DNA from: Corynebacterium afermentans subsp. afermentans
Lineage (GTDB): Bacteria > Actinomycetota > Actinomycetes > Mycobacteriales > Mycobacteriaceae
Direction of reading: 5' to 3'
DNA length: 64,000 nucleotides
NCBI RefSeq assembly: GCF_030408355.1
Contig: NZ_CP046606.1
Location: 1,116,001 to 1,180,000, forward strand
Shown: positions 36,588-39,328 of the stretch, piece after piece
Numbering within the stretch: position 1 is the stretch's first letter
How the letters are laid out: each line of letters starts with the position of its first letter
Position numbers and translations under genes: made by a program
Notes under the pieces: model-generated
The model's database searches: none
Told to the model about the DNA's origin: nothing
What the model saw: only the letters and a program-made list of their open reading frames with translations

Positions 36588-36706
36588 TGTCGGTGGTTGA
36601 TGGCGGCGGGGAAACGCCCGGTCCCATTCCGAACCCGGAAGCTAAGCCCGCCCGCGCCGATGGTACTGCTCCCGGGAGGGAGTGGGAGAGTAGGTTACCG
36701 CCGACC
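36588..36706 (+). rRNA. rrf: 5S ribosomal RNA
   Basis: About 119 nt, with closing stem TGTCGGTGG / CCGCCGAC, the conserved GAAACGCCCGGTCCCATTCC loop region and CCGAACCCGGAAGCTAAG. It lies 170 bp after 23S, whose spacer holds no tRNA. Confidence 0.95.
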
Positions 36707-36720
36707 CAACAACTTCACAC

Positions 36721-36766
36721 AAGCACCCGCCGCACCAACACTGATGGTGCGGCGGGTGCTTTGCTA
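36721..36766 (+). terminator. rRNA operon terminator
   Basis: A perfect 16-bp stem AGCACCCGCCGCACCA / TGGTGCGGCGGGTGCT with a seven-base loop ACACTGA, followed by TTGCT. The strongest hairpin in the window and correctly placed after 5S. Confidence 0.92.
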
Positions 36767-36792: not shown

Positions 36793-36840
36793 ACTCCGCA
36801 TTGCGGACAACCACAGTGGCACCCATCATTGGTGCACACC
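36793..36840 (+). repeat. double-palindrome repeat, copy 1
   Basis: First of five related elements of about 48 bp. Box A is ACTCCGCATTGCGGACAAC (palindromic TCCGCA/TGCGGA); nine variable bases follow; box B is GGCACCCATCATTGGTGCAC (arms GCACC/GGTGC). It starts 27 bp after the rRNA terminator and exactly 71 bp before copy 2. Confidence 0.85.
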
Positions 36841-36863
36841 AACCAATTCCGTGCCCGGGCCTC

Positions 36864-36911
36864 ACTCCGCTTTGCGGACAACCACGACGGCACCCATCAT
36901 TGGCGCACACC
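36864..36911 (+). repeat. double-palindrome repeat, copy 2
   Basis: Same layout as copy 1 with box A ACTCCGCTTTGCGGACAAC and box B GGCACCCATCATTGGCGCAC. The 23 bp between copies 1 and 2 are not conserved. About 106 bp separate it from the left end of the IS element. Confidence 0.85.
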
Positions 36912-37017
36912 CATGAAATCCCCGGGGCGAAATCACCCGGCGGGACGCGACCTGCCAACTAGGGGCCACATAGGTCGCGGGGACAGCAGCAACGACGATG
37001 CCTACTGCGGGACGAAA

Positions 37018-38796
37018 GTCGAGTACCGGACGTCGAGTACGCCCGGAGTTGTCAGTGGGTGAATGCGCCACCTCGACTTGGAGGTTGTTGTGGCTGGTCG
37101 TTGGACTCCGAAGGATGTGAAGGCTGCGTCTGTGGCGCGGCTTGTTGCAGGCGATGATGTCGGCGAGATTGCTCGTGAGGCCGGTGTGGCAGAGGCCACG
37201 GTTTATGAATGGGTCAAGCAAGCAGGCGTGCTCCCGCCGAAGAAGGCGTTGGCACGTGCACGCGACCAGCTCATCGACGAGGCGGTGGCGCTGGTGGCTT
37301 CAGGTATGTCGGTACCGGATGCGGCTGCGACGTTAGGCATGTCACCAGGGGCGTTGTACCAGCGGTTGGCGAAAGTCGGTGTGCTGACCGAACTGCAGCA
37401 AAAGCCCCGCATCACCCCGCAGCAGAAAGCTGACGCGGTCGCACGGGTGCTGGCTGGTGAGCCGGTTGACGAGGTTGCGGCGGCGTTCGACCGGTCTGCG
37501 AATTCGGTGTATCGCTGGGTGCAGCAAGCACGCCAGGAGAAGGCGGGCGGAAACCGTGATGCGTCACAGCGCGCGGACACGCCGGAGGCTTGCACGGTAA
37601 AACCACCTGCACACAGCAAAGTTGATTCCGTGCCAGCACCAATGAAAACACAGGCAGGCCACGCGCCTGCCGACTATGCCGAGGACCGTGTGAAAGTCGG
37701 CCGCGGGGTCCGACTGTCGTATGAAGACCGCCTGACGATCCAACATGGGTGCAACCAGGGAATGTCAGCCAGGCAGATCGGAGCACTTCTGGGGCGCCAC
37801 CATAGCGTGATCAGCCGGGAAATCGCCCGCAACGGGTGGGAAGTTCCCGGCGAAGACGGTGAGGCCACGGTGTACTACAACGCCCGGCAAGCCGGCCTGG
37901 GCGCCAAGGCGCGTGCGCACCGGCCGAAGGTGCGCAAGCTCGACGACAACCCGGCACTTCGTGCTGTGGTGGTGACGTGTCTTGCCCGCCGGTGGTCGCC
38001 CGGGCGCATCAGTGTGTGGCTTCAGCATGCTTTCGCCGATGATGAAAGCATGCGTATTTCCCACGAAGCGATCTACAGTGCCTTGTACATCCAGGGCAAA
38101 GGCAGCTTGCGCGCCGAGCTTGAAGCGGTGATGAAGACCCAAGATGTGCTCATCCGCGGCGGCAAGCGGCGAAAAGCTCGGCCCCGTAATGCCGGTGTGC
38201 TCACCGGTAAGCCGTGGATCAAAGGTGCTGAAATCACCAAGCGCAGCCCAGAGGCTGACGACCGGGCAATCCCCGGGCACTGGGAAGGCGATCTTGTTAT
38301 CGGCACCGGCGGCAAAAGCGCGCTGATTACCCTGGTGGAGCGCACCAGCCGCTACACCCTGCTTGGTCATCTGCCCACCGAACACACATCGATGACGGTG
38401 ATTGCAACGATCCAGCAGATGGTCAAAGACCTCAACGCTGAACAGCTCAAGACCATCACCTGGGATCAAGGCGTGGAAATGGCTGAAACCGCAAGTGTGC
38501 GCATCAAAGACGGCTGCGAGGTGTACTTTTGCGATCCGCACGCGCCGTGGCAGCGACCGACCAACGAGAACACCAACGGTGAGATCCGCCGCCGGTTCTA
38601 CAAGAAAGGCACCGACTTCGCCGAAGTAACCCCCGAGCACGTCGCCTGGGTACAAGACGAACTCAACGACACACCACGACAAGTCCTCGGCGGAGCAACC
38701 CCACGTGAGATACTCCAGCAAATATTCAATCGTGGCGCATTAACCGCTTGATCCCGCCCCCGCATACACCGACAGACTCGACCTCCACTACTCGAC
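37018..38796 (+). mobile_element. IS30-family insertion sequence
   Basis: A roughly 1.78-kb element built around an IS30-type transposase. Proposed ends are an inverted pair of tandem GTCGAGT motifs: left GTCGAGTACCGGACGTCGAG at 37018-37037, and right, on the minus strand, GTCGAGTAGTGGAGGTCGAGT at 38776-38796. A second, inner inverted pair reads GGTGAATGCGCCAC at 37058-37071 and GGTTAATGCGCCAC (minus strand) at 38732-38745. I could not find a convincing target-site duplication, so the exact edges are uncertain. It sits inside the repeat cluster, between copies 2 and 3. Confidence 0.75.
37090..38751 (+). CDS. IS30-family transposase
   Basis: A DDE transposase of 553 residues from GTG 37090, which lies five bases after GGAGG (37080-37084); an ATG at 37063 lies within the inner inverted repeat and before that site. 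IS30 transposases are usually about 380 residues; here the N-terminal part is enlarged. It has four helix-turn-helix-like units: VGEIAREAGVAEATVYEWVK, VPDAAATLGMSPGALYQRL, VDEVAAAFDRSANSVYRWVQ and the standard IS30 unit SARQIGALLGRHHSVISREI. The catalytic core follows with Asp401 (GHWEGDLVIG), Asp459 (WDQGVEMA) and Glu498 (NTNGEIRRRFYKKG). No frameshift or stop is seen, so it may be active. Confidence 0.93.
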   Translation: MAGRWTPKDVKAASVARLVAGDDVGEIAREAGVAEATVYEWVKQAGVLPPKKALARARDQLIDEAVALVASGMSVPDAAATLGMSPGALYQRLAKVGVLTELQQKPRITPQQKADAVARVLAGEPVDEVAAAFDRSANSVYRWVQQARQEKAGGNRDASQRADTPEACTVKPPAHSKVDSVPAPMKTQAGHAPADYAEDRVKVGRGVRLSYEDRLTIQHGCNQGMSARQIGALLGRHHSVISREIARNGWEVPGEDGEATVYYNARQAGLGAKARAHRPKVRKLDDNPALRAVVVTCLARRWSPGRISVWLQHAFADDESMRISHEAIYSALYIQGKGSLRAELEAVMKTQDVLIRGGKRRKARPRNAGVLTGKPWIKGAEITKRSPEADDRAIPGHWEGDLVIGTGGKSALITLVERTSRYTLLGHLPTEHTSMTVIATIQQMVKDLNAEQLKTITWDQGVEMAETASVRIKDGCEVYFCDPHAPWQRPTNENTNGEIRRRFYKKGTDFAEVTPEHVAWVQDELNDTPRQVLGGATPREILQQIFNRGALTA

Positions 38797-38832
38797 CAAC
38801 AACGCACCCACAACAACCCAGGTACGGTCCAC

Positions 38833-38881
38833 ACTCCGCATTGCGGACAACACCGGGAACACCAACAATGGGTGCCTACCC
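38833..38881 (+). repeat. double-palindrome repeat, copy 3 (diverged)
   Basis: Box A ACTCCGCATTGCGGACAAC is identical to copy 1; box B is degenerate (ACACCAACAATGGGTGCCTA). It begins 36 bp after the proposed right end of the IS element. Confidence 0.75.
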
Positions 38882-38994
38882 ACGGACAATGTAGCTGGCG
38901 GTCTCGTAAAGGTTAACGCCGGCGATTTCCCATCTGGGTAAACACCGGTCGAAAACGGCTGGACCGTCAACGTTTGCGAAAGCCGCCCCCGCGA

Positions 38995-39043
38995 ACTCCG
39001 CATTGCGGACAACAAGAGCCGGCCCCATCATTGGTATGCACCC
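38995..39043 (+). repeat. double-palindrome repeat, copy 4
   Basis: Box A ACTCCGCATTGCGGACAAC and box B GGCCCCATCATTGGTATGCA. It lies 71 bp before copy 5, the same spacing as copies 1 and 2. Confidence 0.83.
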
Positions 39044-39065
39044 ACGAACTGCAGATCGGGGCGAT

Positions 39066-39114
39066 ACTCCGCAATGCGGACAACCCCAGATACACCCATC
39101 ATTGGTGCACCCCC
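39066..39114 (+). repeat. double-palindrome repeat, copy 5
   Basis: Box A ACTCCGCAATGCGGACAAC is a perfect palindrome at its centre (TCCGCAATGCGGA is one base off symmetrical); box B is ACACCCATCATTGGTGCACC. The non-coding stretch 38797-39295 contains copies 3 to 5 and otherwise nothing I can name until the promoter of the next gene (TATAAT at 39296-39301). Confidence 0.83.
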
Positions 39115-39328
39115 ACAAATATTTCCGAGTGGCACCCCCACAAACCGACAATCCACCAGGGCAAACACGGCGCGACGTGTACGACCAGTGCGATAGCCCT
39201 TAGGTAGGTTCTGGTTGCGGGGGCTGCGAGCGCGGGAGCGCGCGGCGGATCCTGCAGGTGGTGGGAGCAGTATGTGCCCGAGTGCCCAGCTTTCCTATAA
39301 TGGTCGAGATTAGAAACGGAGGTCCCCT

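Follow-up and report, generated by a model that had tools for sequence, protein, structure and literature searches.

The DNA considered here is a 64,000-base window of Corynebacterium afermentans subsp. afermentans (bases 1116001-1180000 of a 2,375,453-base contig), in which five copies of a double-palindrome repeat lie behind a ribosomal RNA (rRNA) operon. These repeats probably serve as DNA sites, scattered over the genome, for a family of DNA-binding nuclease proteins particular to this clade. The best reading is a REP/RAYT-like arrangement in which a cognate protein goes with scattered palindromes, only built on an unrelated enzyme. The core palindrome of the repeat is associated with one subfamily of HNH nuclease genes (A), a different palindrome is associated with a sister subfamily (B), and the catalytic residues of these proteins are conserved. 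The likeliest role of A is to bind its palindrome and so control the promoter of its own gene, with the arrays as additional sites. That cleavage drives the spread and mobilisation of the palindromes is a conjecture. Genomes and loci are cited by our own numbers (G and L).

A preliminary description of this DNA had claimed five double-palindrome copies in two pairs of constant spacing, and both claims are borne out. ACTCCGCNNTGCGGACAAC occurs five times without mismatch, with starts at 36793, 36864, 38833, 38995 and 39066; 0.36 matches are expected by chance at up to three mismatches, and five copies were reached in none of 100 shuffles. The start-to-start distance is exactly 71 bp for copies 1 and 2 and again for copies 4 and 5. 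The copies are:

36793-36843, + strand, copy 1 of the double-palindrome unit; palindromes at 36795-36807 and 36820-36834; among the listed matches to sequence model R1
36864-36914, + strand, copy 2; first palindrome (TCCGCTTTGCGGA) at 36866-36878, second at 36891-36905
38833-38883, + strand, copy 3; first palindrome at 38835-38847, second (CACCAACAATGGGTG) at 38860-38874
38995-39045, + strand, copy 4; first palindrome at 38997-39009, second at 39022-39036
39066-39116, + strand, copy 5; first palindrome at 39068-39080, second at 39093-39107

The second palindrome is less uniform than had been described. Only copies 1 and 5 have CACCCATCATTGGTG intact; copy 2 has CACCCATCATTGGCG, copy 4 has GCCCCATCATTGGTA, and the CACCAACAATGGGTG of copy 3 is almost the reverse complement of CACCCATCATTGGTG. 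The linkers of the two pairs are unlike each other, as had been noticed, but the same linkers reappear in the arrays of other rRNA operons. Given this recurrence, the 71-bp period looks like the product of tandem duplication plus exchange between operons, and such exchange would explain the shared linkers. The early judgement that this is not a CRISPR holds as well; the repeats are unlike, and their start-to-start distances run from 67 to 1969 bp across the genome's four rRNA-operon (rrn) arrays.

The first sign of a gene partner was that several arrays in other species lie just upstream of an HNH gene. Subfamily A, sought by running a DUF222 profile against 14 chosen genomes and by tblastn over fetched loci, comprises 18 genes in 16 genomes (two each in G059 and G042, one each in G000, G049, G189, G016, G159, G070, G118, G020, G122, G021, G121, G162, G130 and G104) and occupies about eight neighbourhoods. 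The core TCCGCAWTGCGGA, hereafter the A palindrome, is found upstream of all 18. It is perfect and within 350 bp of the first aligned codon in 17, and in G104 there is a one-mismatch copy within 350 bp upstream and a perfect copy slightly further. One to six copies stand upstream of the gene's conserved promoter-like region. Nine of the 18 genes were found among the protein profile's weak matches, and so were located independently of the palindrome, with the limits that the genomes searched had been chosen for carrying the palindrome and that four of these nine had already been met in reading the arrays. Twenty loci were fetched by palindrome position. These gave an A gene in four of the 11 from G121, G162, G130 and G104, one per genome, and in none of the nine from G097, G029, G149, G163, G199, G178 and G023. 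Among genomes with two copies, G104 is A-positive, and G097 and G029 are A-negative at the fetched loci. At the outer base pair of the A palindrome, dispersed copies match those at the gene in G162 (5/5), G189 (9/9) and G070 (2/2), and nearly all do in G000 (29/31).

Sister subfamily B comprises seven genes and has a palindrome of its own, ACT[AC][TC]GC-N4-GC[AG][TG]AGT. At up to two mismatches this stands two or three times upstream of five of the seven B genes, and the A palindrome stands upstream of none. The B palindrome is also the second palindrome of the dispersed units in several species, as ACTATGC in G000 (at 1602 kb), G189, G159 and G038 and as ACTCTGC in G118. A comparison of gene and dispersed copies covers G118 and G059, leaving aside G049 and G122; in G118 the CTGC arm is common to the B gene and seven of the eight dispersed copies. 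The DUF222 search gave 53 matches, of which we read only the ones that came back as loci or were fetched afterwards. No A palindrome lies upstream at the 29 other loci from this search (28 apart from one B gene), and a single locus among them has a one-mismatch, non-symmetric match to a loose B pattern. The window's lineage has CACCAA-N3-TTGGTG as its second element; no owner for it was found among these 29 loci, two of which have a loose match at up to two mismatches.

The A open reading frames (ORFs) are about 370-490 residues long and encode DUF222-like proteins with a C-terminal HNH nuclease. For the A gene at L020:5469-6791, a comparison of promoters suggests that translation truly begins at residue 22. 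PF01844 is above its cut-off in all five A/B proteins scanned, and the H-N-H residues are invariant across 42 sequences. PF02720 reaches 30.5 bits in L134 against a cut-off of 24.4 and stays below the cut-off in the other four. The N-terminal domain of A is predicted to have a helix-turn-helix fold of the ParB/Noc type. The N-terminal CTP-binding ParB/Srx domain has no match among the Pfam rows listed, and the middle of the model is of low confidence. A tree separates A and B from the canonical DUF222 genes that these genomes also carry. At the recognition helix, as predicted, the motif is TAHEY or SAHEY in most A proteins (TAYEY in G122) and TAFEY, TAYEY or LAYEY in B proteins; the residue that differs is a candidate specificity residue. 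Models of defence systems gave weak matches to the HNH region only. Plasmids and phages were also considered as carriers of an A-like protein and set aside, with a single distant match in each (31.7% and 33.9% identity).

The whole genome contains 41 matches to the repeat at up to two mismatches, against one for a reversed control pattern. All four of its 5S genes are followed by an array, of 6, 5, 6 and 8 copies, and these arrays hold 25 of the 41 matches, all in the operon direction. Fourteen of the 16 matches elsewhere are no more than about 102 kb from the origin, taken as the dnaA-dnaN region at the contig start. The non-rrn copies whose surroundings were read, a set excluding the match at 633 kb, are between ORFs. 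Within the window the copies are indeed confined to the one island, as had been claimed, but the island is not purely non-coding, since it holds an IS30 transposase frame. Further copies, whose absence had been named as grounds for refutation, thus exist in this genome, and they occur in relatives too. The strict 17-base form is found at one mismatch in 18 of 201 Corynebacterium genomes, several with a single match; a sequence model built from 92 copies has at least seven matches in 10 of the 201; and TCCGCAWTGCGGA occurs at least four times in 21, with a control never found more than once. In each of 387 non-Corynebacterium Mycobacteriales genomes (from a draw of 397) the core occurs at most three times. 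When genomes are ranked by gyrB, the window's eight closest are eight of the nine other model-positive genomes, followed by G025, G060 and G009 without a model match and then by G122, the ninth. Spacing periods, noted while helical phasing was being considered, vary by species (about 65-71; 43/44 and 54; 92-104).

A variant unit, several copies of which end in CTTTGGTGCGTCGATAGG, recurs near the origin (L029, L037, L051, L019), and in G000 and G049 two copies of it stand 310 bp apart in the origin-proximal region. Near rpsF (L017, L028, L049) there is one unit in G159 against two in G000 and G049; recombination between a pair of units would account for the lone one.

For the rRNA operons, we counted the core at up to one mismatch within 4 kb behind the 5S gene and found copies behind 31 of 40 operons in ten A-gene genomes, including all four operons in each of G000, G016, G159, G189, G059, G042 and G020. 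One G020 operon is counted by one-mismatch variants only, and exact positions alone were used for one operon in G042, one in G020 and all four in G121. Outside the count are two draft genomes, G038 and G070, and five A carriers, G118, G021, G162, G130 and G104; five copy-bearing G118 loci were read, and there is no rRNA in any of them. G060, G009 and G178 have no arrays, with the core at none of their 12 operons. Relative to the operon, the array is forward in G000, G049, G159 and G038 and reversed in G189 and G016. At one G016 operon (L039), about 3 kb separates the 5S gene from the array, by eye an apparent insertion element and small genes.

In the mechanism we propose, subfamily A would bind TCCGCAWTGCGGA as a dimer through its ParB/Noc-type domain and would probably regulate itself through the palindromes upstream of its promoter-like region. 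Extra palindromes make up arrays between genes, chiefly behind rRNA operons. The arrays would be spread and homogenised by nicking or cutting of the sites and repair from other copies, together with tandem duplication and with exchange from one rRNA operon to another. What makes such a spread attractive as a conjecture is that the HNH residues have been kept and that the gene sits in about eight neighbourhoods, always with palindromes. The more general proposal is a new class of gene plus palindrome, in which ParB/Noc-like HNH paralogues, A, B and perhaps a third, would each have their own palindrome, regulate themselves and, through cleavage and repair, seed composite arrays that often lie behind rRNA operons; this would be the HNH counterpart of REPtrons. 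We advance this broader form tentatively, as somewhat less likely than not.

Several observations weigh against this interpretation. Foldseek gives the ParB match only weak E-values (best 0.65), the rmsd is near 6 in several of its nine rows, and the whole A model has no match below E 0.001. Clade support for A is modest (68/84). A mobile element would have a two-sided layout, but the 700 bp that follow each of the 18 A genes contain no palindrome at up to one mismatch, and no clean occupied/empty pair was found for a single unit. The palindrome edges of gene and dispersed copies are mixed or different in G049, G118, G020, G042, G059, G121 and G104. For B, the genes of G009 and G178, both genomes without arrays, lack the B palindrome, and in G059 the B gene has the arm CCGC against CTGC in the sole dispersed copy. 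Whether A genes are missing from palindrome-free genomes was checked in the origin-proximal interval of ten genomes only, and seven of the 21 multi-copy genomes fall outside the whole-genome A-gene search. G049 has copies at three of its four rRNA operons, with one empty, and G122 and G121 have an A gene and copies at none of four operons each, so the rRNA setting is not obligatory. There is also one perfect A palindrome inside the A gene of G104 (L230, near 2813), and one of the two G042 A genes (L144) has an in-frame stop near its start and may be decaying.

Part of this distribution would also be expected if the sites served the host, that is, if they were sites of a Noc-like organiser or regulator selected near rRNA operons and the origin, with the HNH domain in another role or lost and no spread by cleavage. 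The predicted ParB/Noc-type fold, the copies behind 31 of 40 operons in the ten carriers, the 14 of 16 non-rrn matches within about 102 kb of the origin in the window's genome, and the rpsF-proximal sites kept in four species all suit such a role. We nevertheless think it unlikely, because the sites are patchy among close species, missing at every rRNA operon of G122 and G121 and flipped in orientation between lineages, and because the HNH residues are invariant.

Other features around the array bear on the remaining alternatives:

36589-36706, + strand, 5S rRNA gene, the last gene of the operon preceding the array (Rfam RF00001, 96 bits)
36723-36762, + strand, hairpin and short T-run behind the 5S gene, a putative operon terminator read from the sequence
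37046-38755, + strand, IS30-family element between copies 2 and 3 (NCBIfam IS30, E 3.8e-66; Pfam rve and HTH_38)

The IS30 element contains a transposase frame of 562 residues (37063-38751) between imperfect terminal inverted repeats, its ends being set by eye and its junctions inspected. The rrn1, rrn3 and rrn4 arrays of the same genome have the same linker without the element. It is a later arrival, outside the repeat system, and as a simple insertion in one of four rrn arrays it is ruled out as their maker. One might still suppose MITE- or REP-like non-autonomous palindromes moved by an insertion-sequence transposase, for which the ends of rRNA operons would be a safe landing and the nuclease genes another landing site. 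The IS30 element inside the window's array, frames resembling other insertion elements near copies elsewhere (by eye) and the clustering of the copies are in keeping with this. It is quite improbable all the same, since IS30 is a simple insertion missing from the other three arrays, and since landing sites leave the pairing of A genes with the A palindrome and of B genes with the B palindrome unexplained. The REP-type Y1 transposase (PF01797) that the preliminary description had proposed to look for has no match in the 17 genomes searched and matches in five of 14 control genomes, and is likewise rejected as partner.

The transcribed structure that had been suggested, such as a regulatory RNA trailing the rRNA operon, now appears very improbable. 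The repeats are palindromic, adjoin a highly transcribed operon and, in the rrn arrays read, all point one way within a genome, but the alignment of 92 copies has 83.5% paired cells, the same as the shuffled mean of 83.5%, and a covariation score at chance. Its first helix is nearly invariant, and its second is frequently broken. An Rfam scan of the window returned only rRNA and tRNA genes, with no match in the island. The array lies beyond the terminator-like hairpin, which is nearly identical behind all four rRNA operons, and it is reversed in G189 and G016. The lack of compensatory changes, which had also been named as grounds for refutation, counts against RNA hairpins and not against DNA-binding sites. 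The protein-binding array offered as the other possibility fits, the palindromes behaving as DNA sites. The second element accepts CACC[A/C]A in either half, a tolerance that would fit two independent DNA half-sites. DnaA boxes or another replication site are the least credible alternative. TTGTCCGCA is one base off TTGTCCACA, the actinobacterial DnaA box, but the origin-region stretches read in four of these genomes contain TTATCCACA and TTGTCCACA and no TTGTCCGCA.

With ParB-parS and Noc, the A protein shares the predicted DNA-binding fold, and the sites of those systems are palindromic and similar in length to the palindromes here. The differences are that A has a C-terminal HNH nuclease, with no ParB N-domain among the Pfam rows listed, and that its sites lie behind rRNA operons and at its own gene's promoter.

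REP sequences, as described in PMC2817692, are short palindromes that occur between genes, several to a genome and often in clusters; the cognate RAYT gene has its own palindromes alongside, and gene subfamilies pair with different palindromes. The likeness extends to clustered short intergenic palindromes, palindromes beside the cognate gene and subfamily-specific pairing. The enzyme differs, being an HNH protein with a predicted ParB/Noc-like domain rather than a Y1 HUH transposase. The palindromes are upstream only, whereas in REPtrons they are on both sides and inverted; no GTAG-type head is seen at the palindrome foot in the 92-copy consensus; and there are tens of copies rather than hundreds. 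Since the HUH transposase and the two-sided palindromes are both missing, we do not class the system as a REPtron. PMC2817692 also describes BIMEs as mosaic intergenic palindrome islands, which ours resemble, but the sequences are others, there is more than one palindrome type per unit, and the islands are often behind rRNA operons. The REP13E12 or DUF222-HNH genes of mycobacteria, in passages of PMC10589994, combine DUF222 and HNH, are repeated in genomes and are named as a repeated element, DUF222 itself being still of unknown function in Pfam. The repeated DUF222-like plus HNH architecture is common to both, but A and B stand apart from the canonical DUF222 genes, and those passages mention no cognate palindromes.

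A literature search found nothing on a pairing of palindromes with HNH-nuclease genes. The pairing would give the DUF222/HNH genes and the dispersed palindromes a testable partner each, connect a parS-like DNA-binding fold to a nuclease, offer an explanation for palindrome islands behind rRNA operons, and supply a defined candidate binding site for the biochemistry of such a protein. To our knowledge, dispersed palindromes outside REP/RAYT are usually without a known partner.

Further long imperfect palindromes recur in the same islands (L045, L022, L017 and the rrn arrays of L014-L016). They are of the types CTCGTAAAAGTTGAC...CGTCA..TTTTACGA, TTTTGTAAAACTCG and GTCGAGTAC, and may belong to additional protein partners.
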